In this document: positions 18,452 through 39,324 of the stretch, in pieces | Position numbering within the stretch: the stretch's first letter is position 1 | Layout: the number at the start of each line of letters is the position of its first letter | DNA from: Muribaculaceae bacterium | GTDB lineage: Bacteria; Bacteroidota; Bacteroidia; Bacteroidales; Muribaculaceae | Assembly (NCBI GenBank): GCA_017629835.1 | Contig: JAGBWK010000060.1 | Location: 1 to 64,000, forward strand | DNA: 64,000 nt | Direction: 5' to 3' | Position numbers and translations under genes: made by a program | Notes under the pieces: generated by a model | The model's database searches: none | What the model saw: only the letters and a program-made list of their open reading frames with translations | Told to the model about the DNA's origin: nothing

Positions 18452-18576
18452 TAAGTCATTTTGAGCATATCCAGCCCAGAAAAATTGCATAGTGAAGTAA
18501 TACTAAGCAGCAAATGCTTAATATTAAAATCATTACAACTACCGCAATAGAGAATTTTATAAAACATTACTATAAT

Positions 18577-19923: not shown

Positions 19924-20002
19924 TCGACTTAGCACGAGTATCTTCCACACAGCTAAATCAGCACAAACAAACAGAGTATTAGAAATTTAACACAACAAAA
20001 TA

Positions 20003-21214
20003 GTGAAACAACTACGAAAACTGCTTGACCGCGTAAAGCCTCATTTCGAGTCCGAAGGAAAGTTGCACGCTTTCCACTCGGTGTTTGATGGTTTCGAAAC
20101 GTTTTTGTTCACGCCTAAATCGACTTCAACATCAGGTGTGCACATTCACGACAGCATCGACAGCAAGCGCACAATGATTATCGTTGTAGTGGCGCTCCTG
20201 CCCTGCTTACTTTTTGGCATGTACAACACAGGCTATCAGCATTGGCTTGCCACTGGGGCTACAGAGTTCCCATTCTGGTCGTTGATGCTTTACGGATTTC
20301 TCGCCGTACTGCCCAAACTGCTGACAACCTACATCGTTGGTCTTGGCATAGAATTTATTGTAGCACAATGGCGCAAGGAGGAAATCCAAGAAGGATTCCT
20401 CGTGACAGGTATTCTCATTCCGCTGATTTGTCCTGTCGACACCCCATTGTGGATGATTGCCATAGCAACTGCATTCTCTGTAATCTTCGTTAAAGAGATA
20501 TTCGGAGGCACTGGCTATAATATATTTAATGTGGCATTGGTCACTCGCGCATTCTTATTCTTCGCTTATCCAGCGTCAATGAGTGGCGACAAAGTGTTTG
20601 TCAACACTGCCCCAATCTTCGGCGTAGGCAATTCGCAAGTGGTCGACGGCTACACAGGAGCAACACCTCTCGGACAATTCGCTTCACAATCGAGCGACCA
20701 AGCTGTAGTGCTCACCAACACCGTTGGAGAACAGATTACAACATGGGATATGTTCTTCGGGCTAATCCCAGGCTCATTTGGCGAAACATCTACATTGTGC
20801 ATCCTCATTGGCGCAATGATATTGCTCTTCACTGGAATAGCTTCGTGGCGCATCATACTGTCGGTATTTGCTGGTGGCGCAGTGATGTCGCTTATTGCCA
20901 ATGTGTTTAACACGCCACTATATCCAGCATCAATGCTTTCAGTAGCCGACCAACTTTGCCTCGGAGGCTTCGCATTTGCTGCAGTGTTTATGGCAACTGA
21001 CCCCGTCACAGCTTGCCGCACCAACGTAGGTAAATATATCTACGGATTCCTCATCGGTGTGTTTGCAATCCTCATCCGCGTTTACAACACTGGTTATCCT
21101 GAGGGTGCAATGCTCGCCGTGCTCCTTATGAATGCTTTCGCACCGCTTATTGACTGGTGCGTAGTTCAGTCAAACATACGCCGCCGTGAGCGCCGTCTAA
21201 AAGTCGTTAAATAA
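20003..21214 (+). CDS. nqrB: Na+-translocating NADH-quinone reductase subunit B
   Basis: This 403-residue membrane subunit has about ten helices and carries a covalent FMN. The flavin-attachment Thr is Thr221 within YTGATPL, corresponding to the SGAT motif. The start codon is GTG. The protein belongs to the NqrB/RnfD family; its length and the full nqr neighbourhood distinguish it from RnfD. NqrB forms the main Na+ path in the complex. Confidence 0.95.
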   Translation: MKQLRKLLDRVKPHFESEGKLHAFHSVFDGFETFLFTPKSTSTSGVHIHDSIDSKRTMIIVVVALLPCLLFGMYNTGYQHWLATGATEFPFWSLMLYGFLAVLPKLLTTYIVGLGIEFIVAQWRKEEIQEGFLVTGILIPLICPVDTPLWMIAIATAFSVIFVKEIFGGTGYNIFNVALVTRAFLFFAYPASMSGDKVFVNTAPIFGVGNSQVVDGYTGATPLGQFASQSSDQAVVLTNTVGEQITTWDMFFGLIPGSFGETSTLCILIGAMILLFTGIASWRIILSVFAGGAVMSLIANVFNTPLYPASMLSVADQLCLGGFAFAAVFMATDPVTACRTNVGKYIYGFLIGVFAILIRVYNTGYPEGAMLAVLLMNAFAPLIDWCVVQSNIRRRERRLKVVK

Positions 21215-21216
21215 TT

Positions 21217-21948
21217 ATGAATAAGCAAAGTAACGTCTACACTATAGTTTACATCACGATAGTGGTGCTTGTGGTCGGCACACTGCTGGCATTCACATCT
21301 ATGTCGCTACGCAGCCGTCAACAGGCTAACGCCGACGCCGACAAGATGCGCCAAATACTCAATTCAGTACACGTCACAGCCCAGAAGGGCGAAAAAATAG
21401 CCGACATTTTCGACCAGCACATCAAAGGTATGATGCTTGTCAATGCCAATGGTGAAGTAGTTCGTCAATCCGACGGCCTTGATGCTGAAATCTTTGCAAC
21501 AGACATTGCCGCAGAGAGCAAAAATGCAGATGCTTCGCAACGAAAACTGCCTGTGTATGTATGTTCGGTCGACAATGGCGATTTGAAATACATCATTCCA
21601 GTGTCGGGCGCAGGCTTGTGGGGACCGGTTTGGGGCTACATAGCAGTTGATGCAAATGGCTCTACTATCTATGGTGCATATTTCTCACATCAGGGTGAAA
21701 CTCCCGGACTTGGTGCCGAAATCGAAAAGCCTGCTTTCCAACAGGAATTTGTTGGTAAACAATTGATTAAAGATAGCGAATTCAATCCTATCGCCGTCGT
21801 TAAAGCTGGACAGAAGCCCAATTCCAACGCCGATTATGTCGACGGCATTTCTGGTGGCACAATCACGAGCAAAGGTGTTGGCGATATGCTTCAGAATTGC
21901 TTGCAACCTTATGCTGCATTTCTCAAAGGTTTAAGCGAGAAAGAGTAA
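21217..21948 (+). CDS. nqrC: Na+-translocating NADH-quinone reductase subunit C
   Basis: This 243-residue protein has one N-terminal helix (about residues 8-28) and a periplasmic FMN-binding domain. Covalent FMN would attach at Thr215 in ISGGTIT, the SGxT motif. It starts 2 bp after the nqrB stop, so the two are likely translationally coupled. Confidence 0.95.
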   Translation: MNKQSNVYTIVYITIVVLVVGTLLAFTSMSLRSRQQANADADKMRQILNSVHVTAQKGEKIADIFDQHIKGMMLVNANGEVVRQSDGLDAEIFATDIAAESKNADASQRKLPVYVCSVDNGDLKYIIPVSGAGLWGPVWGYIAVDANGSTIYGAYFSHQGETPGLGAEIEKPAFQQEFVGKQLIKDSEFNPIAVVKAGQKPNSNADYVDGISGGTITSKGVGDMLQNCLQPYAAFLKGLSEKE

Positions 21949-22034
21949 ACAAATCAATCCATACGCCTTGAGCAGTAGCGACAGGCATAATGAAGTAACA
22001 AACAAGTACCAACAGTCAGTAATTAATAACAGTA

Positions 22035-22658
22035 ATGGCTGAAAAAATAAAACTCAAAGAGGTGTTCTTCAATCCGTTCTCGAAGAACAATCCTGTAATA
22101 GTGCAGATACTCGGTATCTGTTCGGTATTGGCAGTCACCGCCAAACTCGAGCCCTCAATCGTAATGGGATTCTCGGTGATAGCCGTACTCGCATTCTCAA
22201 ACGTAATCATCTCGTTGATTCGCAACACTATCCCAACCAACATCCGCATCATCGTGCAATTGGTAGTTGTCGCTGGATTGGTGGTTGTAGTCAACCAATT
22301 GTTGTTGGCATTTGCCTACGATGTAGCGATGCAATTGTCGGTGTTCATTAGTTTGATTATAACCAACTGTATTCTAATGGGTCGCCTTGAAGCATTTGCA
22401 ATGGCCAACCGCCCTTGGCCGTCGTTTCTTGACGGCGTAGGCAATGGCATCGGTTATGCACTGATACTCATCATCGTTGGTTTCTTCCGCGAACTGTTGG
22501 GTAGCGGCACTCTGCTTGGCTATCAAGTAGTGCCCGACGCATTCTACGAAGCTGGCTACGTCAACAATGGCCTAATGATTCTCCCCCCCATGGCGCTAAT
22601 CCTTGTAGGCTGCATCATCTGGGTACACCGTTCGTTTAACAAAGATATTGAAGGCTGA
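22035..22658 (+). CDS. nqrD: Na+-translocating NADH-quinone reductase subunit D
   Basis: This 207-residue integral membrane protein with about six helices belongs to the NqrD/RnfE family. The motif GRLEAFAMANRPWPSFLDG and the FFRELLGSGTLLG segment are characteristic. With NqrE it forms the membrane core holding an iron centre. Confidence 0.95.
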   Translation: MAEKIKLKEVFFNPFSKNNPVIVQILGICSVLAVTAKLEPSIVMGFSVIAVLAFSNVIISLIRNTIPTNIRIIVQLVVVAGLVVVVNQLLLAFAYDVAMQLSVFISLIITNCILMGRLEAFAMANRPWPSFLDGVGNGIGYALILIIVGFFRELLGSGTLLGYQVVPDAFYEAGYVNNGLMILPPMALILVGCIIWVHRSFNKDIEG

Positions 22659-22686
22659 TAAAACGCAATATATCAAGCATTAAAAT

Positions 22687-23304
22687 ATGGAAAATTTCAA
22701 TATATTCATACGGTCGATATTCGTCGACAACATGATATTCGCTTACTTCCTCGGCATGTGTTCGTTCCTTGCCGTGTCGAAGAACGTAAAGACAGCTTTT
22801 GGCTTAGGTCTTGCAGTTACATTTATGCTCGCCATTACACTGCCAATCAACTACTTATTGAATACTTACGTGCTCAAAGAGGGTGCTTTGGCCTGGCTTG
22901 GACCTGAGTATGCTCACGTTGACCTCAGCTTCCTTTCGCTGATAATGTTCATTGCTGTAATTGCATCAATGACGCAGTTGGTGGAAATGACGGTTGAAAA
23001 ATTTGCACCGTCGCTCTATGCTTCGCTCGGCATCTTCTTGCCGTTGATTGCAGTAAACTGCGCTATCCTCGGTGGCTCACTGTTTATGCAACAACGCGAT
23101 TTTCCAAGCGTAGGCACATCTATTTGCGCTGGTATCGGTTGGGGTATTGGCTGGGTGCTTGCAATCACAGCCATTGCAGCTATTCGCGAACGTCTTGCCA
23201 ACTATTCAAAGATACCAAAACCACTTCAAGGTGTGGGTATAACATTCATTCTAACAGGACTTATGGGCATTGCTTTCATGAGCTTCCTTGGCATAAAGAT
23301 CTGA
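22687..23304 (+). CDS. nqrE: Na+-translocating NADH-quinone reductase subunit E
   Basis: This 205-residue membrane subunit has about six helices and is related to NqrD by inverted topology. The segments GMCSFLAVSKN and VNCAILGGSLFMQQR contain the conserved Cys residues that coordinate the intramembrane iron centre with NqrD. Confidence 0.95.
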   Translation: MENFNIFIRSIFVDNMIFAYFLGMCSFLAVSKNVKTAFGLGLAVTFMLAITLPINYLLNTYVLKEGALAWLGPEYAHVDLSFLSLIMFIAVIASMTQLVEMTVEKFAPSLYASLGIFLPLIAVNCAILGGSLFMQQRDFPSVGTSICAGIGWGIGWVLAITAIAAIRERLANYSKIPKPLQGVGITFILTGLMGIAFMSFLGIKI

Positions 23305-24631: not shown

Positions 24632-25642
24632 ATGACCATAAAGCGAAATATCGACATAGCACGGCTGACGACTTTCGGCATTCACGCCAAAGCCGCAGCC
24701 GTTGTCACATATTCTTCGCTCGAAGAATTGGAGCAAATTATTGCCGATAAATCGCTGCCCACACCCATTGTGCACATTGGCGAAGGGAGCAATCTACTGT
24801 TTACCGATGATTTTCCCGGGACACTGCTAATTAATGAAGGTGACTCGGTTGAGTTTATAGGGCTCGACGATAATGAGATATTAGTGACTGCCGATGCCGG
24901 CATACCGATGGATTTACTTTGTGGTTTCGCTGCAGAATTCGATTTTTGGGGCATAGAAAACCTCTCAGGAATTCCCGGCTCCGTTGGCGCTGCAGTGGTG
25001 CAAAATGTAGGCGCCTATGGTGTGGAGTTCAAAGATGTTTTCGTTGAAGCAGATGCCATTGAAGTCGCCACGGGTAAACACCGTAAGTTCACACTCGATG
25101 AGATGAACTATGGCTACAGATATTCGCTGCTCAAATCGCAAGAGTGGAAAGGGCGTTACTTCATCTACCGAGTTAAATTCCGTCTATCAGAAGTACCTAA
25201 TCCGAAACTCGACTACGGTAATCTACGCTCGTCGGTAGGCGAGTCCCCTACCCTTGCAGAGATACGAAAAGCAATAATCGCAATGCGCGACAGCAAGCTG
25301 CCCAATCCGTCGGAATATGGCAGCGCAGGAAGCTTCTTCAAAAATCCTGTCGTCAGCCACTCGGAATTCGAACGCATAGTAGCCGAAAATCCAGAATTAG
25401 AGATACCCTCGTATCCGGCACCCGACGGCATAAAAATCCCGGCGGCATTCCTCATCGACAAATGCGGTCTGAAAGGACATCAACTCGGCAACGCATCGGT
25501 ATGGCATAAGCAACCGCTTGTCATTGTCAATCACACTGGCAACGCAACTGGAAGCGAGATACTCGCCTTGGAACGGTTGATTGTCGCGACTGTCGAAAAG
25601 CGTTTCGGTATCACACTCCACCCCGAAGTGGAGCATATCTGA
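24632..25642 (+). CDS. murB: UDP-N-acetylenolpyruvoylglucosamine reductase
   Basis: This 336-residue flavoenzyme reduces UDP-GlcNAc-enolpyruvate to UDP-MurNAc, the second committed step of peptidoglycan synthesis. The FAD-binding motifs GEGSNLLFTDDFPG and LSGIPGSVGAAVVQNVGAYG are present. The catalytic Ser lies in the YGSAGSFFKNP segment, and the C-terminal PEVEHI carries the catalytic Glu. It is the long (type I-like) form. The gene begins right after nqrF and is followed by murA after 120 bp. Confidence 0.95.
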   Translation: MTIKRNIDIARLTTFGIHAKAAAVVTYSSLEELEQIIADKSLPTPIVHIGEGSNLLFTDDFPGTLLINEGDSVEFIGLDDNEILVTADAGIPMDLLCGFAAEFDFWGIENLSGIPGSVGAAVVQNVGAYGVEFKDVFVEADAIEVATGKHRKFTLDEMNYGYRYSLLKSQEWKGRYFIYRVKFRLSEVPNPKLDYGNLRSSVGESPTLAEIRKAIIAMRDSKLPNPSEYGSAGSFFKNPVVSHSEFERIVAENPELEIPSYPAPDGIKIPAAFLIDKCGLKGHQLGNASVWHKQPLVIVNHTGNATGSEILALERLIVATVEKRFGITLHPEVEHI

Positions 25643-25762: not shown

Positions 25763-27073
25763 ATGAGTTCATTTATCATTGAAGGAGGTCACAAACTCTC
25801 AGGCTCGATAACCCCTCAAGGAGCTAAAAACGAAGCCTTACAGGTGATTAGCGCATGCTTACTCACAAGCGAGCCAGTATGCATCGACAATGTGCCCGAC
25901 ATTCTCGACGTGCGCAATCTCATCGGACTACTTGAAGGTATGGGTGTGACTGTAGAACGGAATAGCAAACACTGCTATACGTTTACCGCCAACGATATTG
26001 ATCATCAATACATCAATAGCCACGAATTCATCAACCGCTGCGCTACGCTTCGTGGCTCAGTATTGCTCATGGGACCACTGCTTTCCCGATTTGGAAGCAC
26101 TTTCTTCCCCAAACCGGGTGGCGACCAGATAGGCCGTCGCAAAGTTGACACCCACATTCAAGGCTTTATGGCTTTGGGCGCAACTGCCGAATATGAGCAC
26201 GACTTAGCGTCGTACAAACTCAGCGCTGAGCACGGATTGAAAGGCACTTACATGTTGCTCGACGAAGCCTCAGTTACTGGTACAGCCAACATCATCATGG
26301 CTGCTGTACTTGCAGAAGGCAAGACCATAATCTACAATGCTGCTTGTGAGCCTTACGTGCAACAACTTTGTCGTATGCTCGTAGCTATGGGTGCTCGCAT
26401 CGAAGGCATCGGCTCAAACCTTTTGAGCGTGTATGGCTGCGGCGAATTGCACGGCACAACTCATCGCATTCTCCCCGACATGATTGAGGTCGGCAGCTTC
26501 ATCGGTATGACAGCAATGACACAAAGCTCGCTGACAATCAAGGATGTATCAGTCGAAAATCTCGGCATCATACCACAAAGTTTCCGCCGTCTCGGCATCA
26601 AAATCGAACAACAAGGCGACGACCTCTACATCCCCGAACAAGAATCATACGAAATCGAAACTGGGCTCGACGGCTCAATCCCCACCATTGCCGACGCGCC
26701 ATGGCCAGGACTTACCCCCGACCTAATCAGTGTAATCCTCGTGGCAGCTACTCAATGCAAAGGGAGCGTGTTGATACACCAAAAGATGTTCGAAAGCCGC
26801 CTGTTCTTCGTTGACCGCGTAATCGACATGGGTGCAAACATCATACTTTGCGACCCCCACCGCGCTGTAGTTGTAGGACTTGACCACCGCTATCAACTCC
26901 GCGCACGACGCATGTCATCGCCCGACATCCGCGCCGGTATCGCAATGCTCATTGCAGCAATGTCGGCCAAAGGAACATCCGTCATCGGCAACATCGAACA
27001 AATACAGCGCGGCTACGAAGAAATCGACCTCCGCCTAAACGCCCTCGGCGCCAACATCGAGCGCCAAGGCTAA
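25763..27073 (+). CDS. murA: UDP-GlcNAc 1-carboxyvinyltransferase (Cys-to-Asp form)
   Basis: This 436-residue enzyme transfers enolpyruvate from PEP to UDP-GlcNAc, the first step of peptidoglycan synthesis. It has the EPSP-synthase-type fold, catalytic Lys22 in AKNEA and the loop PKPGGDQIGRR. The residue that is Cys115 in E. coli MurA is Asp121 here. Asp at this site, as in mycobacterial and chlamydial MurA, blocks covalent inactivation by fosfomycin while keeping activity. It follows murB, and a hairpin at 27129 ends the unit. Confidence 0.95.
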   Translation: MSSFIIEGGHKLSGSITPQGAKNEALQVISACLLTSEPVCIDNVPDILDVRNLIGLLEGMGVTVERNSKHCYTFTANDIDHQYINSHEFINRCATLRGSVLLMGPLLSRFGSTFFPKPGGDQIGRRKVDTHIQGFMALGATAEYEHDLASYKLSAEHGLKGTYMLLDEASVTGTANIIMAAVLAEGKTIIYNAACEPYVQQLCRMLVAMGARIEGIGSNLLSVYGCGELHGTTHRILPDMIEVGSFIGMTAMTQSSLTIKDVSVENLGIIPQSFRRLGIKIEQQGDDLYIPEQESYEIETGLDGSIPTIADAPWPGLTPDLISVILVAATQCKGSVLIHQKMFESRLFFVDRVIDMGANIILCDPHRAVVVGLDHRYQLRARRMSSPDIRAGIAMLIAAMSAKGTSVIGNIEQIQRGYEEIDLRLNALGANIERQG

Positions 27074-27488: not shown

Positions 27489-28052
27489 ATGAAAATCGAC
27501 CAACATAAAAAAGCGTGGTACGTAGTCAGAGTGCACAATATGTCGTTCGACCGCACTCGCCGACGCCTCGAAGAATTAGGATTCGAAATATTCATCCCCG
27601 AATATTTCGACATAATCATTTTGAACGGAAAGAAGGTGAAGAGCCTTATTCCTGCGCTCAAGGATATCTTCTTCATTTACGCCACCTACGACCAAATTGA
27701 GCGACTTATTACGCAACAAAAGCTTCCGCTGAAGTTTTATTACTCGCATTGCAGCCACATTCAGAATGATGCGCTGTGGGTACGCGAAGAGGATATGAAG
27801 ATGTTTATGCTGGCGCTTAAAGAGCTTGACCGCAAGCCAATGATCCATGCCTACAACGACCTCAACCTTTCAGCTGGGCAGTATGTACGCATATTGAGCG
27901 GCCAGTTTGAAGGAGTCGAGGGCTACTGTTTGCAGCTCGTACGAGGCCAACGCAAGCGTTTGGTGCTCACACTTGGCAACCTCATTTCGGTCAGCCTAAT
28001 TCTTAACCCCGATGACCTCATCGAGCAGCTCCCCTCTCCCACCCAACCGTAG
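27489..28052 (+). CDS. UpxY-family transcription antiterminator (NusG-like)
   Basis: This 187-residue protein has the NusG-like arrangement: an N-terminal NGN domain starting KAWYVVRVHNMSFDRTRRRLEELGF and a C-terminal KOW-like segment around AGQYVRILSGQFEGVEGYC. In Bacteroides, UpxY proteins are encoded first in capsular operons and prevent premature termination in their own 5' leader. Its place at the head of a twelve-kilobase polysaccharide operon fits this. The usual partner upxZ, an inhibitor of other UpxY proteins, is not downstream. Confidence 0.85.
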   Translation: MKIDQHKKAWYVVRVHNMSFDRTRRRLEELGFEIFIPEYFDIIILNGKKVKSLIPALKDIFFIYATYDQIERLITQQKLPLKFYYSHCSHIQNDALWVREEDMKMFMLALKELDRKPMIHAYNDLNLSAGQYVRILSGQFEGVEGYCLQLVRGQRKRLVLTLGNLISVSLILNPDDLIEQLPSPTQP

Positions 28053-28131: not shown

Positions 28132-29670
28132 ATGACTCAGGAACAAAACTCCAATATGACTCGGATAGCGAAAAATACGCTATTTCTCTACATCCGTATG
28201 TTCATATTGCTTGCAGTGGGATTGTACACAGCCCGTGTCGTACTACAAGCACTTGGAGAAACCGACTACGGCATCTATACTGTAGTTGGTGGAGTCGTTG
28301 TATTGTTTAGCTTCCTGAATCATGCGCTGACTACAGCCACTCAGCGCTTCCTAAGTTTCCACATTGGCAAAGAGGACTACGAGAAGGTGTCGGGCGTGTT
28401 CTGCATGAGCATAAATGCTTACATCCTTCTTTCTGTCATAATTCTGATTCTTGCTGAAACGGTAGGCTTATGGTTTGTCGACACGCAATTGAACATACCC
28501 GAAGAGAGAATGGACGCTGCATTGTGGGTGTATCACCTCTCAGTGGCTACGTTCATAATAAATCTACTACGAATACCCTACAACGCTTCTATCATAGCAT
28601 ACGAGCGGATGCATTTCTTTGCATACCTCAGCCTTATCGAGGCTGTGCTGAAATTGGGCGTAATCTATCTGCTGTTTATCACTAATTACGACCGCCTCGT
28701 ATTTTACGCCGCTCTCTACACGATTATCCCACTGATTATCAACATAATATATCGCGAATATTGTCGTCGCAATTTTGCCACCACAAGATACCGCACAATA
28801 TGGGACGCCAAGATATTTCGCGACCTGTTTAGCTTCTCTGGCTGGACGCTCTTCGGCTCAATAGCCAACATTGCCGCGATACAAGGCCTTAATATCCTGA
28901 TTAACATATTCTTTGGCGTAGTGTTGAACGCAGCTGTTGGCATAGCGACGAATGTCACAAGCCACGTCACTCAGTTTGTGTCGAATTTCCAAACAGCCTT
29001 CCAACCGCAAATCATCAAAACTTATGCCGCTGGGAAGGTTGATGAATTCAATAATTTGCTATTCCGCACCTCGAAATTCAGCTTCTATCTGATATTCTTC
29101 ATCGCACTCCCATTGCTGCTGACCACGCAATCGTTTCTCAATATATGGCTTACTGATGTACCCCCACTTGCGGCTATTTTCTGCCAACTAATATTGATAT
29201 TTATGATTATCGAAGCTATCTCAGCGCCGCTATGGATGGCAATTCAAGCCACAGGCGAGATACGCAACTATCAGATAATCATGGCGTGCTGCATATTACT
29301 AAATCTCCCTCTTACCTACCTTGCATTCATCACTGGGATGTCGGCATATAGCTGTTGGGTAATTCGCATAGTTGTCAACGTATTCACAGTTGTTGTAAGA
29401 ATTTGGTATCTCAATCGTCATCTCAACTTTCCTGTTGGTCGATTCTGCAAGAATACATTATGGCCAATATTGAAAGTCGCAATCATAGCTGTTCCAGTGC
29501 CATTGGTTTTAGCTATGATAATACCCTCCGACCTTAGCCGACTAATCGCAGTAATCGTTGTGTCAGTCGTCATCAACGTGCCTGCGATGTACTATGTGGG
29601 TATGACCAAGAACGAGCGACAATTGGCAGTGAATCTCATTCGCACAAAAATACTCCGAAAATCTGAATAA
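28132..29670 (+). CDS. Wzx-type polysaccharide flippase
   Basis: This 512-residue membrane protein of the MATE/oligosaccharide-flippase superfamily has about 12-14 helices. The N-terminal NTLFLYIRMFILLAVGLYTARVVL and GETDYGIYTVVGGVV segments are typical of Bacteroidetes O-antigen/capsule flippases. It should move undecaprenyl-linked repeat units across the inner membrane. It follows upxY by 79 bp and precedes the pyruvyltransferase fusion by 4 bp. Confidence 0.88.
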   Translation: MTQEQNSNMTRIAKNTLFLYIRMFILLAVGLYTARVVLQALGETDYGIYTVVGGVVVLFSFLNHALTTATQRFLSFHIGKEDYEKVSGVFCMSINAYILLSVIILILAETVGLWFVDTQLNIPEERMDAALWVYHLSVATFIINLLRIPYNASIIAYERMHFFAYLSLIEAVLKLGVIYLLFITNYDRLVFYAALYTIIPLIINIIYREYCRRNFATTRYRTIWDAKIFRDLFSFSGWTLFGSIANIAAIQGLNILINIFFGVVLNAAVGIATNVTSHVTQFVSNFQTAFQPQIIKTYAAGKVDEFNNLLFRTSKFSFYLIFFIALPLLLTTQSFLNIWLTDVPPLAAIFCQLILIFMIIEAISAPLWMAIQATGEIRNYQIIMACCILLNLPLTYLAFITGMSAYSCWVIRIVVNVFTVVVRIWYLNRHLNFPVGRFCKNTLWPILKVAIIAVPVPLVLAMIIPSDLSRLIAVIVVSVVINVPAMYYVGMTKNERQLAVNLIRTKILRKSE

Positions 29671-29674
29671 CACA

Positions 29675-31990
29675 ATGGAGAACATTTGCCCCAAGAATCT
29701 ATGCACTGGTTGCTTTGCGTGCAGCAATATATGCCCAAAAGACGCTATCACGCCGAAAGCCGACAATGAGGGATTTGCTCACCCGGCTATTGACGCAGAA
29801 AAGTGCATCGATTGCGGACTATGCGAAAAGGTATGCCCTATCAACCACCCCGCTGAGAGGAATTTACCAATCGCAGTATTCAGCGGATGGGCTAATGATG
29901 AACGTATTCGTCGCGAAAGCTCATCAGGTGGAGCATTCTCTGTATTGGCACAACAAACATTGTCGGAAGGCGGCATAGTTGTAGGCGCTGCACTCGACGA
30001 AAACCTTAAAGCGGTACATATCGCCATCTCCGACGCATCTGAAATGAGCAAATTGCGTGGAAGCAAATACGTTCAAAGCGCTATTGGACTAACGTATCGG
30101 CTCATTAAAGAGAAGTTATCGGAAGGTAAGAAAGTGCTATTCAGCGGCACTCCCTGCTATGTTGCGGGGCTTCGCAATTACCTTCAGAAGGAATACGATA
30201 ACCTTGTAACGGTCGACATTATATGCCATGGCGTGCCATCGCCATTGGTTTTTGAGCAATGGAAGTCTTGGTTTAAGAAGTCTAATTCGGTTGAGACCAT
30301 TAAAACTATAAAATTCCGCGACAAAAAATTGTCATGGCTATTTTTCAACATGGATGTTGAAGGTACAACCAAATCAGGCGATAAATTTAGCTATGCTGGT
30401 GGCTTTTTCAAAGATGCTTGGATTCGCGGATTTCTCTCCGACAGGTTCTTGCGCCCTGCCTGCCACCGATGCCAATTTGCTGACCACCATCGCTGCTCTG
30501 ATATCACAATAGCCGACTGGTGGGGTTATAAAAACGAGCCTAACGAGCCTAACGATTTCGAGAAAAAAGGCGTATCGCTCATATTATGCAACACAACGAA
30601 AGGAGAATCGTTCTTTAATCAAGCTTCAGTTGGGCAAATGTCGATAAAAAGTCGTAAATTTGAGGATGCAATCAAAACCAACCCGACGCTCTCACATCCC
30701 ACTCGCGAGCCAGCCGACAGAGCTAAGTTTTGGGAATGTTTTCACAATGAAACATTCGACAATGTAGCAAAACGATATATGCGTCCTGTAGGCAAAACCC
30801 CGCAAGAATGGATTATGAGCATCACTACGCCGGGCAAACAGCGACAACTAATGCTAAATATATTCTATAAATTCCGACGATTATACCACCTACTATTCCC
30901 GTCGAAGAATCCCGACCCGACAGACAGATTGACTATATATCAAAGAGTTTGTCGCCGCCTCAAGTGGTATCGCAATCGGTTTTTCCGCTACCATTACGCC
31001 AAATCGATAAAACGGAGCATCTCCAACAAGAAAGGCAAAACAATCTACTTGTTCTGCCCACCAATACACAACAATCTCGGCGACCAAGCTCAAACGATGT
31101 GTATTTACCGTTGGTTTAATAGCTATTATCCCGACTACAACGTAGAGTGGATTCCAATGCAAGTGTCGGACGACAAGACATTGGCTCTCGTAAAAGAAAA
31201 AATAGCTGACGGCGACTTGATATTCGTTCATAGCGGCTATTTGACCACTGAATTATATGGTTACTTGCCATTTATAGCGCGCATCGTCGATACCTTCACA
31301 AGCAATAAAATCACAATATTGCCACAAACAGTGAATATCGCTACCGACGAAATGCGCGATATGTTCACTCGCTCAATCAACGCAAATCCGAATGTAACAT
31401 TCATTTGTCGCGACGAAACATCCTATGCTAAAGCCCAAGAGCTATTTACCTGTCGAGTACTTCTGTATCCCGATATTGTGACCTCACTTATTGGGCTTGA
31501 AGAATTCAATTTCGCAACAAATCGCAATGGCATACTAATGGTGTTGCGCGACGACAAGGAAAAGTTTTATTCCGACGAGCAATTAGCCGCTCTCGCGTCA
31601 AATCTCCAAAACAAAGGAGTCAAAATCGAAAGATTCGATACCACAATAAACTGTTCTCCATTCACGTGGACTCTGAATCGAGAACGAACAATCAAACGCT
31701 ATCTGCGAAAATTCGCCGATTACAAACTGATTATTACCGACCGCTATCACGGCACCATATTTGGACAGATTGTTTCAACTCCAACGATTGTAATAGCGTC
31801 ATCCGACCATAAGCTCGCAAGCGGGGTTAGGTGGTTCCCTGAAGAATTCAGCAATCAACTATTCTTTGCAGAAAGCCTTGAACAGGCTGAACGTATTGCT
31901 GAACGTATTCTTCAACAGGACTCACACCCAACTCAATCCGCGCCATATTTCAACGAAAACTATTGGTCGAAACTTCACAACGAACTATAA
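29675..31990 (+). CDS. Ferredoxin/FrhB-like domain fused to polysaccharide pyruvyltransferase
   Basis: This 771-residue protein joins two functions. The N-terminal part has two [4Fe-4S] motifs (Cys10, 13, 16, 20 and Cys44, 47, 50, 54) followed by a coenzyme F420 hydrogenase/dehydrogenase beta-subunit-like domain (about residues 70-370). From about residue 452 it is a polysaccharide pyruvyl transferase of the CsaB/WcaK type, with NNLGDQAQ near the start and TDRYHGTIFG near residue 688. The pyruvyltransferase would add a PEP-derived ketal to a sugar. The redox partner's role in polysaccharide loci is unresolved. The two parts are often separate neighbouring genes in gut Bacteroidetes. Reading is continuous, with no sign of frameshift. 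Confidence 0.85.
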   Translation: MENICPKNLCTGCFACSNICPKDAITPKADNEGFAHPAIDAEKCIDCGLCEKVCPINHPAERNLPIAVFSGWANDERIRRESSSGGAFSVLAQQTLSEGGIVVGAALDENLKAVHIAISDASEMSKLRGSKYVQSAIGLTYRLIKEKLSEGKKVLFSGTPCYVAGLRNYLQKEYDNLVTVDIICHGVPSPLVFEQWKSWFKKSNSVETIKTIKFRDKKLSWLFFNMDVEGTTKSGDKFSYAGGFFKDAWIRGFLSDRFLRPACHRCQFADHHRCSDITIADWWGYKNEPNEPNDFEKKGVSLILCNTTKGESFFNQASVGQMSIKSRKFEDAIKTNPTLSHPTREPADRAKFWECFHNETFDNVAKRYMRPVGKTPQEWIMSITTPGKQRQLMLNIFYKFRRLYHLLFPSKNPDPTDRLTIYQRVCRRLKWYRNRFFRYHYAKSIKRSISNKKGKTIYLFCPPIHNNLGDQAQTMCIYRWFNSYYPDYNVEWIPMQVSDDKTLALVKEKIADGDLIFVHSGYLTTELYGYLPFIARIVDTFTSNKITILPQTVNIATDEMRDMFTRSINANPNVTFICRDETSYAKAQELFTCRVLLYPDIVTSLIGLEEFNFATNRNGILMVLRDDKEKFYSDEQLAALASNLQNKGVKIERFDTTINCSPFTWTLNRERTIKRYLRKFADYKLIITDRYHGTIFGQIVSTPTIVIASSDHKLASGVRWFPEEFSNQLFFAESLEQAERIAERILQQDSHPTQSAPYFNENYWSKLHNEL

Positions 31991-32005: not shown

Positions 32006-33229
32006 ATGTTGTATGAGGGCACTGGGGTAGGCTCCCCATTCATATTCTTTGCAGCTCGCTTTCTCGTTCTGTTAGTGCTATGCATTGCAGGATATGGGAT
32101 ATCGTATGGTAAACCAGAAAACTTTAAGAAATATGCTTGGTTTGCCGGCATAGTATATTCATTAGTTGAAGGACTTCGATGGCTTCGCGGTGCCGACTAC
32201 TGCCATTACTACAACGACATTGTTACAAATCTTGGAGAAAATCCGATGAACCTATATGGCGAACGAATCATAACTCCTGAGCCTGAATTGATTTATCAAC
32301 TATGGATAAACTTTTTTAATTTTACAACACTGCCTTTCTGGGTGGCGTTCATATTCTATAGTGCGCTGCTTATAGGTGGGCTACTTTTAGTCGTAAAACA
32401 GTTTCCTAAATCAGCTGTTATTGCACTCCCCCTCTTCTTCGTCTTGACGGTTGACTCATCGGAGAATCTCATCCGACAATACTTTGCAGAGGCTTTAATG
32501 TTCTATGCCTACTATTTCCATTTGAAAGAAAAGAGGGCATGGATGGTTGCAATGCTTATTATCGCACCACTAATCCACTATTCGGCCATAGCTGTCGACA
32601 TTATATTTTTGGCCATAGTCTTGACATGGAAGCCGCTCGAAAAGTTCTACCGCAGCTATGCGACATTAGGCGTACTGTTTGCGATATTCCTTTATGGATA
32701 TTTCGTGTTCGACATCTCTAACTTCCAATTCATCGCTGACTTTGCATACGAAAACGTAGACCTTGGCGACGATAAAGCAGCACTCTACGTCGACGGCGCA
32801 GACCAATGGTTGTCGGAAGAGGGAAGTCTTGCAGAGACACAACTCGGAGTAAGCGTTGGCGCAATAAGTATCTACAACAACATCGTAAAATTCATTGCAT
32901 ACAGCGTAATTATCATCATTGGATTCTTGCTTGTACGCGCTGACAAACGATTGGCCGTTGCTTACGCATTTTCGTACATTGCCATACTCCTAAAAACCAC
33001 ATGTAGCGACATTGAGCTATATCTACGCCTATATTATTGGTTTGTAATCCTCCTGCCTATCATTGCTGGATGTGTGTTCAACAAAGATAATCTCAAACCA
33101 ATTTGGCGTGCGCTCATCCTTGGAGTGTTCATCCTCTGCTTCCTATGGTACGGATTCCTCCGCTCAGGATTCTCTGCAACACTCTTTGGATATGGATTTA
33201 TATGGGATGCCAACGTCAATATTTGGTAA
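32006..33229 (+). CDS. EpsG-family polysaccharide polymerase (Wzy-like)
   Basis: This 407-residue membrane protein with about ten helices matches the EpsG family of repeat-unit polymerases. The hallmark near residue 65 is GLRWLRGADYCHYYND, the R-G-x-D-Y-x-x-Y signature. It should polymerise repeat units in the periplasm, paired with the Wzx flippase upstream. It lies 15 bp after the pyruvyltransferase fusion. Confidence 0.8.
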   Translation: MLYEGTGVGSPFIFFAARFLVLLVLCIAGYGISYGKPENFKKYAWFAGIVYSLVEGLRWLRGADYCHYYNDIVTNLGENPMNLYGERIITPEPELIYQLWINFFNFTTLPFWVAFIFYSALLIGGLLLVVKQFPKSAVIALPLFFVLTVDSSENLIRQYFAEALMFYAYYFHLKEKRAWMVAMLIIAPLIHYSAIAVDIIFLAIVLTWKPLEKFYRSYATLGVLFAIFLYGYFVFDISNFQFIADFAYENVDLGDDKAALYVDGADQWLSEEGSLAETQLGVSVGAISIYNNIVKFIAYSVIIIIGFLLVRADKRLAVAYAFSYIAILLKTTCSDIELYLRLYYWFVILLPIIAGCVFNKDNLKPIWRALILGVFILCFLWYGFLRSGFSATLFGYGFIWDANVNIW

Positions 33230-33262: not shown

Positions 33263-34249
33263 ATGCTGCTGAGCATTATCATACCGGTCTACAAAGTAGA
33301 AAAATATATAGGCAAATGCCTCGCAAGCCTGTACGACTGCAACGCTTCTACAGCCGACTACGAGATAATTGTAGTCAATGACGGCACACCCGACCGAAGC
33401 ATGGATGTAGTCTACGAATATGCAAAAAGCCGCTCCAACATCACCATTATTAATCAGGAGAATGCTGGGTTAAGTATGGCACGCAATGCTGGGTTGAAGA
33501 TAGCGCAAGGAGAATACATCTGGTTTGTTGATAGCGACGATTGGCTTTGCCATAATGCCATTGACAACGTACTCGCAGCGATACAATCCACGAGATTCGA
33601 AATTTACGTAATCCCCTTTATAAATTGGCTGGAATCAAAAGGAGACAGCATTATAGAGGAGTCTCAACTCGGCAAGTATTTCGTAATCAAAGGTTCGAAG
33701 TATCTATTTGAAGGTTATTACAACTCCCCTGCTCAGAGATTCATAATAAGCCACGAGCTAATTAAGAGACACAAACTCAGCTTCTACCCTGACATTCTTC
33801 ACGAAGATCTTGAATTCTGTCCAAGAGCATTGTATTTAGCTGAGCGAGTTGGATTTATAGATGAGCCGGCATACGTTTATCGCTTGCGCGCAGAAGGTAG
33901 CATTACTTCCAATTTCAATAGGCGCAATTTCGACTCACTCAAAATCGCTTATGACCAACTTGGCAAGTTTGGGGAAACTCACATCAAACATAACGACAGA
34001 AACTATTGGACAGCATACCGTTCGAAGCATCTTTTTTACTTCTATTACAAGCTAATTACATCAATTCGACAGAATCCCGATTCTGCTGAATTAATGGAAT
34101 CATACTTTGAGTATCTGCCTCTAATTCGACGTAATATCCGAGGGATGCTAAAATCTAAGCACTTGAAAAAAAGTCAAATTAAAGATGCTTTATTGATTTC
34201 GCTTTTTCCAAACAAAGCATTTTCTTACTATCTGAAACATTGGCAATGA
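33263..34249 (+). CDS. Family 2 glycosyltransferase
   Basis: This 328-residue cytoplasmic enzyme has a GT-A fold of GT2 type: SIIIPVYKVEKYIGKCL at the N-terminus, IIVVNDGTPD near residue 36 and the metal-binding WFVDSDDW near residue 92. It would add one sugar to the lipid-linked repeat unit. Sugar specificity cannot be read from sequence. Its stop overlaps the next start (ATGA), showing coupling. Confidence 0.85.
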   Translation: MLLSIIIPVYKVEKYIGKCLASLYDCNASTADYEIIVVNDGTPDRSMDVVYEYAKSRSNITIINQENAGLSMARNAGLKIAQGEYIWFVDSDDWLCHNAIDNVLAAIQSTRFEIYVIPFINWLESKGDSIIEESQLGKYFVIKGSKYLFEGYYNSPAQRFIISHELIKRHKLSFYPDILHEDLEFCPRALYLAERVGFIDEPAYVYRLRAEGSITSNFNRRNFDSLKIAYDQLGKFGETHIKHNDRNYWTAYRSKHLFYFYYKLITSIRQNPDSAELMESYFEYLPLIRRNIRGMLKSKHLKKSQIKDALLISLFPNKAFSYYLKHWQ

Positions 34250-35403
34250 ATATCGTCTACTATACATCGACCGACTTTCTTGACTCAGATATGCCCCTAA
34301 TCAGGGAATATCAACAAATGGGGCACAGAGTGAAAGTGTTTATACCATTGGCGCCATTCAACATCAAGGGCTCGGTGGTTAACATCAAGGAACTCAAACC
34401 AGTGGACGACATTGTCAAAGCTACAGAATACTCTGAGATTTTAGTCTACAAAGATTTCATTGACCTTAACGACATTTACTTCGTCAATCGTTCTACGTCG
34501 AGCGTGCGAACAATGGCGTATTTCAGAACGATGAAGAAAATGTGCAAGATGATAGCTGATTTCAATCCCGACGCTATTCATTGCACATTCCCACTCGACA
34601 CTCTCGACTGGCTACTGATTCGGTTCAGAAAGAAATTGGTGCTTACGATGCACGATCCATTCCAGCACTCATCGAAGGGTGGTTTGCGAACCAACCTGTT
34701 CCGCTGGTTGTCAGTGAAATTAGTGCCAAAGATTGTACTATTGAATTCTGTACAGAAGCAAGATTTCCAACGAGTTAATCACGTAAGCTGCAAACGCATA
34801 CTCATCAACCGCCTTGGCGTTTACACCGCATCTCGAACATTCGTCAAGGATGACGCCGAAAATGACTGCAATACATTGCTATTCTTCGGCAAGATTTCGC
34901 CCTATAAAGGAATTGAATATCTGTGTGAAGCAATGGTTGATGTGCATCGCGAATACCCTCAAGCTAAACTCATCATTGCAGGAGGGGGCAAAATACCGTT
35001 TGACTACACTCCTTACGAAGGGCTCGACTACATCGAACTGCGCAATCGATTTATCCCAACGCCCGAAATTGCAGAGCTGCTTGGCAAAGTGGGATTTACA
35101 GTGTGTCCCTATCGCGACGCGACTCAGAGCGGCGTGATTATGACCGCATTTGCTCTCGACTGCCCAATTGTTGCATCAAACGTGGGTGCACTTTCTGAGC
35201 AGATTGAAGATGAAAAAACTGGTTTGCTCGTGCCTCCATGCGACTCTAAAGCACTCGCTTCAGCTATAAAACGTATGCTCGGCAATCCTGGGCTACAACA
35301 TCAAATGCGCGAAAACATTCGCTTGCGCAACACCAACTCCGAGAATAGTTGGAGCAACATTGCTGCAAAATATATCGAATTCTACAACAAGAAACTCCAT
35401 TAA
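34246..35403 (+). CDS. Family 4 glycosyltransferase
   Basis: This 385-residue GT-B enzyme has a Rossmann-type N-domain and a C-domain with LLFFGKISPYKGIEYLCEA and DCPIVASNVGALSEQIEDEKTG, the GT4 donor-binding region with its conserved Glu. The start at 34246 overlaps the preceding stop by four bases (ATGA); an alternative Met is six bases upstream. The donor and acceptor sugars are unknown. Confidence 0.85.
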   Translation: MNIVYYTSTDFLDSDMPLIREYQQMGHRVKVFIPLAPFNIKGSVVNIKELKPVDDIVKATEYSEILVYKDFIDLNDIYFVNRSTSSVRTMAYFRTMKKMCKMIADFNPDAIHCTFPLDTLDWLLIRFRKKLVLTMHDPFQHSSKGGLRTNLFRWLSVKLVPKIVLLNSVQKQDFQRVNHVSCKRILINRLGVYTASRTFVKDDAENDCNTLLFFGKISPYKGIEYLCEAMVDVHREYPQAKLIIAGGGKIPFDYTPYEGLDYIELRNRFIPTPEIAELLGKVGFTVCPYRDATQSGVIMTAFALDCPIVASNVGALSEQIEDEKTGLLVPPCDSKALASAIKRMLGNPGLQHQMRENIRLRNTNSENSWSNIAAKYIEFYNKKLH

Positions 35404-36290
35404 TGATGAGCACTCGCTACTCTTTCGTCATACTCCATTACAACGCAACCGACGACACCATTGAGTGCGTCGATTCAGTGCGCAAGTATATGGCTGGCAA
35501 AGATTACCATATTGTGTTGGTCGACAATGCTTCGCCAAATGGGAGCGGGCCATTGCTTCGAGAGAAATACGGGAGCGACAATGATATCACATTAATATTA
35601 TCTGACAAAAATCTTGGATTCTCAGGCGGCAATAACATCGGATTTGCCTATGCAAAGCAACATTTGAGCCCCGATTTCATCGTTATGCTCAACAACGACA
35701 CCCTATTGTTGCAAGCTGATTTTGCAGAACTCATAGAAAGTGAATATGCCGAAAGCCATTTCGCTGTGCTTGGACCAAAGGTTGAATCCCCAGGCAACTA
35801 CTGCCGCTCCAATCCCGTATCTCTAACCGAACGTAGCCTTTTTTACTACATACGAAAAACCGTACAAATATTATTCAATTACGTAATTAGCTTCATCGGC
35901 ATAGAACCTTACTATCAACGACTTAAAGGGCGCAGGAATGGACACAGCATTGCAAAATGCGACGGCAGCTACGAAACTCGACGTTTGGAAGGTGTGCAAC
36001 TTCATGGTTGCTTCTGGATATTCTCAAAGGAATATATCGAGCTATTCGATGGGCTGAACGCCAAAACTTTTCTATACGGAGAGGAGCCTTTGCTGCATCG
36101 CCGTCTGATTGTCAACAATCTAAAATCGGTCTACAATCCCGCCATTCGGATATACCACAAAGAAGATGCGTCGACAAAAACAATCCACCGCAATGCTCGA
36201 AAAAAGCAATTATTCGTCGACAAATTAGCCCTCAAAGCCAACTGGGCGATAATCTGCAACCGCTTCACCGAACACCGTCTGAAGCCGTAA
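35403..36290 (+). CDS. Family 2 glycosyltransferase (rhamnosyltransferase-like)
   Basis: This 295-residue protein begins MMSTRYSFVILHYNATDD and carries IVLVDNASPNGSG, NLGFSGGNNIGF and MLNNDT, the pattern of GT2 enzymes related to WcaA/rhamnosyltransferases. The start at 35403 overlaps the previous stop by one base (TAATG). The in-frame extension upstream to 35349 lies inside the preceding gene and is rejected. Confidence 0.83.
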   Translation: MMSTRYSFVILHYNATDDTIECVDSVRKYMAGKDYHIVLVDNASPNGSGPLLREKYGSDNDITLILSDKNLGFSGGNNIGFAYAKQHLSPDFIVMLNNDTLLLQADFAELIESEYAESHFAVLGPKVESPGNYCRSNPVSLTERSLFYYIRKTVQILFNYVISFIGIEPYYQRLKGRRNGHSIAKCDGSYETRRLEGVQLHGCFWIFSKEYIELFDGLNAKTFLYGEEPLLHRRLIVNNLKSVYNPAIRIYHKEDASTKTIHRNARKKQLFVDKLALKANWAIICNRFTEHRLKP

Positions 36291-36310
36291 ACAACTTTAA
36301 CTCTACTACA

Positions 36311-37222
36311 ATGTCACCAGTCATTACGATAATAATTCCTCATAAGAATTCATCTAAATTACTCAATCGCCTGCTTGTGTCGATTCCGAAGCACGAGGAT
36401 TGGCAAGTTATTGTAGTTGACGACCATAGCTCTGAAGAAGAATGCAATGCCGTAAAACAGCTATGCAAATCTTTTGATTTCGAGTGCTACGACAATCCTT
36501 ATACCACTGCTGGTGGCGCAAGAAACAAAGCCCTCGAACACGCCAAAGGTAAGTGGATTTTGTTTGCAGATGCTGATGATTATTTCACAACAGAACTTTA
36601 CGAGGCAATAAGCAGAAACGTCAATTCAGAAGCCGACATTGTATTTTTCTCTGCAATAAGCAAGGATAGCGACACTGGCGAAGAAGCATTTCGCAATGAG
36701 CATATTGTCGAAATGATTAACAAATATCATACAACCGCTGACGATGGTTATTTGCGGTACAAGTTGCTTGCCCCGATCAGCAAACTCATTCGCCACGAAC
36801 TAATCACCGACAATAATATCAAATTTGAAGAGCGCCCAGCTGGCAACGATATGTGGTTTTCTATAAACACTGGTATCGCCGCACGGAAGGTTGAATGTGA
36901 TAATACTGCAATATATTGTATCACAATTCGCAAAGGGAGTATAACTACAACAATATCCCCAAATCTATTTGAGCACAGATTGCAAGCAAGCATTCGAACC
37001 AACAAGCTACTCCGAAAACACAAACTCAATAAATACCAAATCTCGCTCCTATATTTCCTCGGGATGTCGTATCAATTCGGGTTAAAGTATATGCTTCATG
37101 TTGCAAAATGCGTATTATTCAGCGGAACATCCTTACTGATAGGATTAAACAAGATTCTAAAAATAAACAAGGTTCTCAACGACCGACAAAACAGAGCAAA
37201 ACTCACAAGAGTAAAAAATTAA
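36311..37222 (+). CDS. Family 2 glycosyltransferase
   Basis: This 303-residue GT2 enzyme starts MSPVITIIIPHKNSSKLLNR and has VIVVDDHSSEEE and the DxD-like FADADDYF. A C-terminal hydrophobic segment (about residues 245-275) may attach it to the membrane. The start at 36311 is chosen because the longer frame from 35957 overlaps the upstream gene. It is 20 bp after the preceding gene. Confidence 0.82.
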   Translation: MSPVITIIIPHKNSSKLLNRLLVSIPKHEDWQVIVVDDHSSEEECNAVKQLCKSFDFECYDNPYTTAGGARNKALEHAKGKWILFADADDYFTTELYEAISRNVNSEADIVFFSAISKDSDTGEEAFRNEHIVEMINKYHTTADDGYLRYKLLAPISKLIRHELITDNNIKFEERPAGNDMWFSINTGIAARKVECDNTAIYCITIRKGSITTTISPNLFEHRLQASIRTNKLLRKHKLNKYQISLLYFLGMSYQFGLKYMLHVAKCVLFSGTSLLIGLNKILKINKVLNDRQNRAKLTRVKN

Positions 37223-37253: not shown

Positions 37254-38534
37254 ATGAAACTTAATAATCACAAAATCTGCGTAATTGGACTTGGATATGT
37301 AGGCTTGCCACTTGCTCGCCTATTCTCCACTAAATATACAACTATTGGCTTCGATATGAAGTCCGAACGTGTCAATGCCATTATGCAAGGGCACGACGCT
37401 ACTTTAGAAGTCAGCGACGAATTGCTACAGAATGCTATCAACAATGGATTTGTTTGCACATCAAACATAGAGGATATACGCGATTGCAACATATATATTG
37501 TAGCAGTACCAACTCCTACCGACAATTATAATCATCCCGACCTCAAACCATTGTGGGGCGCAAGTGAAACTGTAGGAAAAGTAATTTCAAAAGGTGACAT
37601 TGTAATATACGAATCAACTGTTTACCCCGGAGTTACCGAAGAAGAATGCATACCTGTAATCGAACGTGTGTCAGGGTTAAAATTCAACGTCGATTTCTAT
37701 GCTGGCTATTCGCCTGAGAGAATCAACCCTGGAGATAAGGAGCATACGGTTGAAAAAATCAAGAAAGTTACATCTGGGTCAACCCCTGAAATCGCGGACA
37801 TCGTTGACGACCTCTACAATAGCGTACTCCTAAATGGAACTCACAAAGCTCCCTCGATAAAGGTGGCTGAAGCTTCTAAAATCATTGAAAACTCGCAGCG
37901 CGATGTGAATATTGCATTTATGAACGAGTTAGCCAAGATATTCAATGCAATGGGCATTGACACTCACGACGTTATCGAAGCTGCTGCATCAAAGTGGAAT
38001 TTCATAAAACTCAATCCGGGTTTGGTGGGTGGTCACTGCATCAGCGTTGACCCATATTATCTCATACAGCAAGCTCAAGTTTATGGTGTGCTGCCACGCA
38101 TAATGTTTGCTGCCCGTAGATTAAACGATGGTATGGGAGAATATGTTGCAGAGCAAACCATAAAGTGTATGAACAAAAAGGGAAGCATCGTAAAAGATTC
38201 CAATATACTAATTCTCGGCATCACATTTAAGGAGAACTGTCCCGACATTCGCAATTCAAAAGTTGTTGACATATATAACACGCTTTCCGACTATACATCA
38301 AACATTACAGTATTCGACCCTTGGGCCGACAAAGCAATTGTAAACCACGAATACGGCATTGATTGCACCAACGATTGGGATGCAATTAAAGACAAAAAGT
38401 TCAATGCAATAATCCTTGCTGTTGCTCACAAAGAGTTTGCAGGCATCGATTTCAGGGAGATGCTTGCCGAATGTGGTGTAATTTACGATGTCAAAGGTGC
38501 ATTGCCGAAAGAACAAATCGATGCTCGACTATAA
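37254..38534 (+). CDS. UDP-N-acetylhexosamine 6-dehydrogenase (TviB/WbpO-like)
   Basis: This 426-residue enzyme oxidises a UDP-sugar C6 hydroxyl to a carboxylate using two NAD+. It opens with the Rossmann motif VIGLGYVGLPLARLF, contains the substrate block AGYSPERINPGD and has the catalytic Cys in GGHCISVDPYYL near residue 260. The sequence is closest in motif to TviB/WbpO, which make UDP-GalNAcA or UDP-GlcNAcA. It would supply an acidic amino sugar to this polysaccharide. WecC-type activity on UDP-ManNAc is the main alternative, and no wecB epimerase is nearby. Confidence 0.85.
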   Translation: MKLNNHKICVIGLGYVGLPLARLFSTKYTTIGFDMKSERVNAIMQGHDATLEVSDELLQNAINNGFVCTSNIEDIRDCNIYIVAVPTPTDNYNHPDLKPLWGASETVGKVISKGDIVIYESTVYPGVTEEECIPVIERVSGLKFNVDFYAGYSPERINPGDKEHTVEKIKKVTSGSTPEIADIVDDLYNSVLLNGTHKAPSIKVAEASKIIENSQRDVNIAFMNELAKIFNAMGIDTHDVIEAAASKWNFIKLNPGLVGGHCISVDPYYLIQQAQVYGVLPRIMFAARRLNDGMGEYVAEQTIKCMNKKGSIVKDSNILILGITFKENCPDIRNSKVVDIYNTLSDYTSNITVFDPWADKAIVNHEYGIDCTNDWDAIKDKKFNAIILAVAHKEFAGIDFREMLAECGVIYDVKGALPKEQIDARL

Positions 38535-38574: not shown

Positions 38575-39324
38575 ATGAAGCATAAATTATTAAACATATC
38601 CATTGATAGGATTACTACGGAGCAACTCCTGAACGACCTTACTGAGGGAGTGCTTCTGACTCCAAATTTGGATCATATGGTCAACTTACAGCACAACAGA
38701 GAGCTTTACGATGCATATTGTACGGCTGATTGGGTTGTATGCGATAGCCGTATTCTATACTTCCTTTCAAAAACCACGAAAAAGCCTCTTCCCGAAACAA
38801 TTCCCGGTAGCTCATTCTTTAGAGAATTTTATCTCTATCACAAAGATGACCCCGATTGTAAAATATTATTATTAGGGGCAAAACCAGGTGTTGCAGACCA
38901 AGCAATGGAGAACATAAATAAAACGTGTGGACGAAAAATTGTTGTTGGAGCACACTCTCCGTCATTCGGCTTTGAGAAAAATGAGGAAGAAAACAACGCT
39001 ATAATCGAAATCATTAAGCAAAGCAATGCAAATGTAGTGCTTGTAGGCGTAGGCTCTCCAAAACAAGAACTATGGATAATGCGACATAAAAATCGATTAC
39101 CTCAAGTGAAAATATGGCTTCCACTCGGAGCTACAATCGATTTTGAAAGCGGGCAATTAAAGCGTGCTCCGCGTATTGTACAGCGTATTGGAATGGAATG
39201 GTTGTATCGCGTAATAAAAGAGCCAAAGCGACTATTTAAGCGTTATTTTGTCGACGATATGAAATTCTTCATCTACTATCTAAAATTTCGTCTAAACCTC
39301 TACAAAAATCCTTTTCAATCGTAA
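38575..39324 (+). CDS. WecG/TagA/CpsF family glycosyltransferase (GT26)
   Basis: This 249-residue protein matches GT26: TPNLDHMVNLQHNREL near residue 30, the CDSRILYFLSK region, ILLLGAKPGVADQA and VGVGSPKQELWIM. Family members transfer ManNAc or ManNAcA to undecaprenyl-PP-GlcNAc, the second step in several polymers. The C-terminal basic tail, with KEPKRLFKRY and WLYRVIK, suits peripheral membrane binding. It would act early in repeat-unit assembly, yet no WecA-type initiating enzyme is in the window. It ends the operon. Confidence 0.85.
   Translation: MKHKLLNISIDRITTEQLLNDLTEGVLLTPNLDHMVNLQHNRELYDAYCTADWVVCDSRILYFLSKTTKKPLPETIPGSSFFREFYLYHKDDPDCKILLLGAKPGVADQAMENINKTCGRKIVVGAHSPSFGFEKNEEENNAIIEIIKQSNANVVLVGVGSPKQELWIMRHKNRLPQVKIWLPLGATIDFESGQLKRAPRIVQRIGMEWLYRVIKEPKRLFKRYFVDDMKFFIYYLKFRLNLYKNPFQS

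Follow-up and report, generated by a model that had tools for sequence, protein, structure and literature searches.

In a 64,000-nucleotide stretch of a Muribaculaceae genome (hereafter, the whole of the stretch analysed is called the window), we identified a 771-residue protein in which ferredoxin-type clusters and an FrhB-type domain are fused to a transferase of the PS_pyruv_trans family, and we consider it likely that this fusion decorates a capsule sugar with a lactyl (1-carboxyethyl) ether through two linked reactions. No biochemistry is available and the polymer of the organism is unknown. The preliminary description of the gene, made from the sequence alone, had proposed that both domains act on the same step, perhaps in a reductive change of the pyruvyl or sugar group, and had named no product. 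Its proposal is supported, on computational evidence only, and reduction of the pyruvyl group is favored by the recurrence of the fusion in two domain orders, the adjacency of the unfused genes, the use of a second flavoreductase family, and the polymers bearing lactyl ethers.

The gene is a single open frame with no break (frame translation; Table 1), and around the junction both alternative frames are interrupted by stops, so that none but the coding frame is open. Both [4Fe-4S] motifs are complete in the translation (C10, C13, C16, C20 and C44, C47, C50, C54), the Fer4 models matching them overlapping each other and some scoring below their own cut-offs. Both FrhB_FdhB domains (PF04422/PF04432) are present above their cut-offs, and PF04230 scored 78.9 bits against a cut-off of 25.3, so that the claimed in-frame fusion of two [4Fe-4S] motifs, an FrhB-like domain, and a pyruvyltransferase held. 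The label "CsaB-type" was loose: the family level was right, but the CsaB equivalog model (TIGR03609) reached 23.6 bits, far below its cut-off of 213.1. No EPSP_synthase or MurB_C match was found in the fusion protein (Pfam). In the genome (1.79 Mb in 83 contigs, 74%-complete), PF04432 and PF04230 matched the fusion only. The gene sits in a capsule operon headed by an UpxY-like antiterminator. Just upstream of this operon, MurB (24632-25642) and MurA (25763-27073) adjoin each other, placing the classical pair for enolpyruvyl transfer and reduction near its proposed analogue; whether this is due to chance is undecided.

Table 1. Features of the fusion gene and its capsule operon, in window coordinates
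Feature	Residues	Position	Strand	Basis or remark
UpxY-like antiterminator, operon head		27489..28052	+	90.2 bits, cut-off 100; Pfam NusG
MatE-family protein, probable Wzx flippase		28132..29670	+	Pfam; end 4 nt upstream of fusion
Fusion gene	771 aa	29675..31990	+	ferredoxin-type clusters, FrhB and PS_pyruv_trans
Two [4Fe-4S] motifs	10-57	29702..29845	+	Pfam Fer4 models
FrhB_FdhB_N	68-135	29876..30079	+	Pfam, 9.2e-11
FrhB_FdhB_C	152-318	30128..30628	+	Pfam, 6.5e-22
Linker	372-466	30788..31072	+	basic, helical; model confidence partly low
PS_pyruv_trans domain	467-710	31073..31804	+	Pfam PF04230, 7.7e-22
DRYHG motif	689-693	31739..31753	+	aligned with PEP-binding R-x-H of Pvg1p
EpsG-family protein, probable polymerase		32006..33229	+	Pfam
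Glycosyltransferases GT2, GT4-like, GT2, GT2		33263..37222	+	frames partly overlapping
Nucleotide-sugar 6-dehydrogenase, TviB nearest		37254..38534	+	Pfam and profile match
WecG/TagA/CpsF-family glycosyltransferase		38575..39324	+	Pfam and profile match

The C-terminal half is assigned at the level of the PS_pyruv_trans family, and transfer of pyruvyl from PEP to a sugar is inferred from sequence alone. The domain aligns with Pvg1p across the R-x-H motif and keeps this PEP-binding motif; variants of CsaB implicate His308 and Arg148 in PEP binding, and the characterized family members, CsaB among them, form ketals (PMC10435577). The full-length structure model, which rests on alignment A4 because the joint alignment A3 misplaced lone transferases, was poor in the transferase half. 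A separate model of the transferase domain was better and matched 5ax7 with a TM score of 0.66-0.68. Among motifs found by pattern, Ser replaced Arg in 69 of the 75 sequences fused or adjacent to FrhB, compared with 14 of 24 lone ones, the pattern missing 20 adjacent, 5 fused, 13 near, and 17 lone sequences. While most paired transferases have Ser, that of the window is of the rarer Arg type, as are its nearest kin (L095 and L068), both paired with FrhB. The idea that the FrhB-paired transferases form one clade marked by a Ser signature was thus rejected.

The FrhB half was modeled with high confidence and matched F420-reducing FrhB-type subunits and the chlorophyll reductase HCAR, so that its kin include reductases. 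Its N and C parts hold four core cysteines (C161, C184, C263, C266), invariant in 14/14 aligned FrhB sequences, which suggest, as an inference from sequence, a third, core cluster; FrhB is known to have a core cluster, and four invariant cysteines fit it. The domain, the core cysteines, and the fold are shared with FrhB-type subunits and HCAR (PF04432/PF04422); in contrast to these, the FrhB of the window is joined to a sugar-modifying transferase and an F420 partner is unlikely. No F420 ligase was found in the 74%-complete window genome, and only one of 198 genomes of the order had a match. We therefore rejected F420 as an unlikely carrier and infer that the reductant is probably ferredoxin-like; the electron donor may be ferredoxin-like or reached by a flavin/NAD(P)H route, the cofactors being inferred. 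The sole ligase match (G073:C118:870-2012) is either an unusual gene or part of a contig that is contamination. Elsewhere in the window (18514-23304), the genes for NqrA, NQR2/RnfD, and two Rnf-Nqr membrane subunits belong to a Na+-translocating NADH:quinone reductase or an Rnf-type complex. The FrhB family can do without the ferredoxin clusters, as the FrhB of Escherichia coli O124 (21% identity to that of the window) has no Fer4 match and some other FrhB genes also lack the Fer4 part.

The association of the two families is shown by their distribution in the order, where FrhB was found in 86/393 genomes (93 genes) and PS_pyruv_trans in at least 134/393. For 53 of the 93 FrhB genes, a PS_pyruv_trans match was present on the same strand no farther than 5 kb away, downstream in 36 cases and upstream in 17, and three were fused: that of the window and, by Pfam, those of G139 and G383. 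The remaining 40/93 had no matched transferase close by, indicating that FrhB is not dedicated to PS_pyruv_trans. We then scanned contigs of one genome per species across 84,980 species and retained the 80 top-ranking ones among 490 confirmed relatives. Nineteen of these were fused, the transferase leading in 14 and FrhB in 5, and 53 had two separate genes no more than 5 kb apart, the distance being at most 200 nt in 39; among the 8 without a transferase, one had it on the opposite strand and the others had none in the stretch examined. This is the comparison of fused and split forms that the preliminary description had called for, and it shows the fusion to be recurrent, to occur in both domain orders, and to be commoner than the title of that description implied, although split neighbors are far commoner still. 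Fusion in both orders is what would be expected of two activities serving one step. On a FastTree phylogeny of 160 transferase domains, the "fused" label changed 8 times, 7 of the changes being forced by well-supported branches; several independent fusions are thus likely, with some doubt from long branches on the tree. FrhB-paired transferases did not form one clade, and paired and lone ones were intermixed (22 changes). The mirror-tree correlation between the two families was weak (r = 0.32, 97 pairs, 1/2000 permutations as high) and cannot tell coevolution from common descent. The known FrhB and PS_pyruv_trans pairs of Bacteroidales, Clostridia, and others have the same two families, split or fused, but differ in order and linker.

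Nitroreductase-family proteins appeared as an alternative partner. We examined the surroundings of transferases in 40 stretches, all from genomes lacking an FrhB match; 36 of the 40 gave the transferase, and 11 of these 36 hold a nitroreductase-family gene (by Pfam for 6/11). Such a gene lay within 200 nt on the same strand for 8/40 lone transferases compared with 0/87 fused or adjacent to FrhB (P = 6e-5, Fisher test, uncorrected for relatedness); against 0/20 from the order and two Bacteroides plasmids, the P value was 0.04. The sole such case in FrhB loci, L051 from the genus of the window, has the nitroreductase beside a second transferase and FrhB beside its own. On plasmids, where 8 of 42 matched records were examined, nitroreductase adjoins the transferase in E. 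coli p30COLEC-2 and in Acuticoccus, and lies one gene apart from it in Lactiplantibacillus; transferase-nitroreductase fusions were seen in Paracoccus and Gemmobacter. The nitroreductase matches in Ruegeria, Rhizobium, and Parabacteroides had no transferase in the stretch. The colanic acid cluster of E. coli K-12, with its annotated pyruvyl transferase WcaK, has neither FrhB nor nitroreductase. Nitroreductase pairs thus place a flavoreductase beside the same transferase family, the reductase being of another family and without Fer4 matches. The replacement of one partner by the other is shown at the sequence level, and the alternation of two unrelated flavoprotein families beside one transferase family argues that the product of the transferase gets reduced. 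A small E. coli plasmid, pBDSF8-3_3 (L295), carries both a nitroreductase-pyruvyltransferase and an FrhB-pyruvyltransferase pair, in polysaccharide-locus fragments among insertion sequences.

Lactyl ethers have long been described in O antigens, in capsules, and in exopolysaccharides of the rumen, and E. coli O58, O124, and O164 and Butyrivibrio fibrisolvens were named beforehand as test cases. When 5426 E. coli genomes were searched by blastn using DNA of a plasmid-borne pair, eight records matched, of which five were chromosomes. The two regions inspected proved to be O-antigen clusters, with wzx and wzy annotated as "O124/O164 family" and the gene order wzx, FrhB, PS_pyruv_trans, GT2, GT32, wzy, GT2, glf, GT2; presence of the pair in an O-antigen cluster of this type is shown. 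With the pair itself as the query, it was found in 5/5 chromosomes with the same wzx name, the transferase being annotated as one intact gene in two of them and as two fragments in the other three. As wzx, wzy, glf, and four glycosyltransferases are accounted for, FrhB and the transferase alone remain for a non-sugar group. 4-O-[(R)-1-carboxyethyl]-D-glucose is reported in Shigella dysenteriae (PMC10609480), which we take to be type 3, identical with O124 and having five sugars and no pyruvate. O58 was not found and is unconfirmed as a case.

Two further groups of polymers are consistent with a lactyl product. The genome of "Pseudobutyrivibrio sp. 49" (L135) gave two FrhB and three PS_pyruv_trans matches, comprising a 747-aa fusion at L180:9378-11621 with the domain order of the window protein, an adjacent pair, and an extra transferase in the same cluster. 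A 1988 paper, listed in the references of PMC6723465, names 4-O-(1-carboxyethyl)-d-galactose from the strain 49 polymer in its title; we equated the two strains on the number "49" alone. A blastn search of the strain 49 pair against E. coli gave no match. In Klebsiella K8, K22, K37, and K66, the pyruvyltransferase gene is present and pyruvate absent (PMC4616057). The K22 polymer contains 4-O-[(S)-1-carboxyethyl]-D-glucuronic acid, according to the title of a structure paper in the reference list of PMC3857182, and K37 differs from K22 solely in acetylation (PMC3857182). K22, K37, and K66 are known to bear 1-carboxyethyl groups, which is unconfirmed for K66, and K8 remains unexplained. The lactyl-ether reading is weakened by the remoteness of the window transferase domain from those of O124 and strain 49, by its Arg type, by the low identity of the O124 FrhB, by the lack of a single clade of paired transferases, and by the other partners of FrhB.

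In the proposed mechanism, the C-terminal domain would transfer the three-carbon unit of PEP to a sugar hydroxyl, and the N-terminal domain would pass electrons through the two ferredoxin-type clusters and the core cluster to a flavin, which would reduce the attached group to give a stable lactyl ether instead of a pyruvate ketal. A single sugar hydroxyl can react with PEP to form an enol ether, while participation of a second hydroxyl can lead to a ketal; in both cases, reduction would yield the lactyl ether. Which of the two is the intermediate is undecided; by analogy with MurA/MurB, we prefer an enolpyruvyl ether reduced in the manner of MurB over a ketal opened reductively. Both substrate and product are inferred and were not measured. 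The proposed logic, PEP three-carbon transfer to a sugar hydroxyl followed by flavin reduction to a lactyl ether, is that of UDP-N-acetylmuramate synthesis by MurA and MurB, from which the fusion differs in its unrelated folds, iron-sulfur electron input, capsule role, and single chain. The ketal pyruvyltransferases CsaB, Pvg1p, and WcaK (PF04230) share the fold and the PEP-binding R-x-H with the window domain, but have no accompanying reductase (WcaK cluster) and stop at the ketal (CsaB).

The same product could be reached in the other order, with the transferase forming an ordinary pyruvate ketal that FrhB then opens reductively. This is possible: ketals are what characterized family members make (PMC10435577), and the mixing of paired and lone transferases on the tree would fit a model in which recruitment is open to any ketal former. 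On the other hand, flavin reduction of a ketal is, to our knowledge, without precedent, whereas enol ether reduction has one of the MurB type. It is very unlikely that the ketal is the final product and that FrhB is only a redox gate or sensor or a scaffold of the complex. While FrhB domains do act as electron-transfer modules in other complexes, a nitroreductase-family protein fills the same place, colanic acid pyruvylation needs neither reductase (K-12 cluster), and K22/K37 and, if identical with S. dysenteriae type 3, O124 bear lactyl, not pyruvyl, groups.

Alternatively, FrhB could reduce the sugar or some other group within the repeat unit that is modified, separately from pyruvylation. 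The 40/93 FrhB genes without a transferase and one FrhB fused to a hexapeptide acyltransferase speak for this, but the many independent fusions to the transferase and the O124 cluster, which leaves no other step unassigned, make it improbable. The remaining concern is a chance fusion through an assembly indel, which the preliminary description had named as grounds for refutation. The genome is a draft of 83 contigs and the nearest kin of the window transferase domain come from split pairs; the single open frame across the linker and the separate fusions in other genomes nevertheless all but exclude an artifact.

The preferred reading, a lactyl ether made by coupled transfer and reduction, can be put more boldly: PS_pyruv_trans together with an FrhB-type or nitroreductase-type flavoreductase, interchangeable and often fused, would build the lactyl ethers of capsules and O antigens as a second invention of the MurA/MurB logic, and whether the configuration is (R) or (S) may depend on which reductase is used. 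Taken jointly, these claims go further than we would at present wager on. O124 has FrhB and, given that identity with type 3, (R), and K22 and K37 have (S); two nitroreductase genes were counted in Klebsiella loci (PMC4616057 gene counts) and would fit K22 and K37, their placement being unverified. The fusion itself is not rare, but the proposed function would be new. In the open-licence literature searched, we found no paper naming the enzymes of lactyl ethers or tying the pair to them, though reviews on the O antigens of Shigella and E. coli that lie outside it may assign the genes. If the proposal is true, lactyl-ether decoration becomes predictable from sequence, many annotated pyruvyltransferase genes yield a different product, serotype chemistry (O124, K22) gains a genetic basis, and the iron-sulfur "F420 hydrogenase" genes in capsule loci of F420-less bacteria are explained.

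Both families were also seen in other combinations. In L184 (8456-10264), FrhB is fused to a hexapeptide-repeat acyltransferase domain and a pyruvyltransferase lies downstream, and L187 and L195 have FrhB genes with no pyruvyltransferase in the stretch, one of them adjoining a cysteinyl-tRNA synthetase gene. In L226 (1164-3206) and L227 (1121-3154), an N-terminal methyltransferase domain is fused to PS_pyruv_trans, representing another recurrent fusion.
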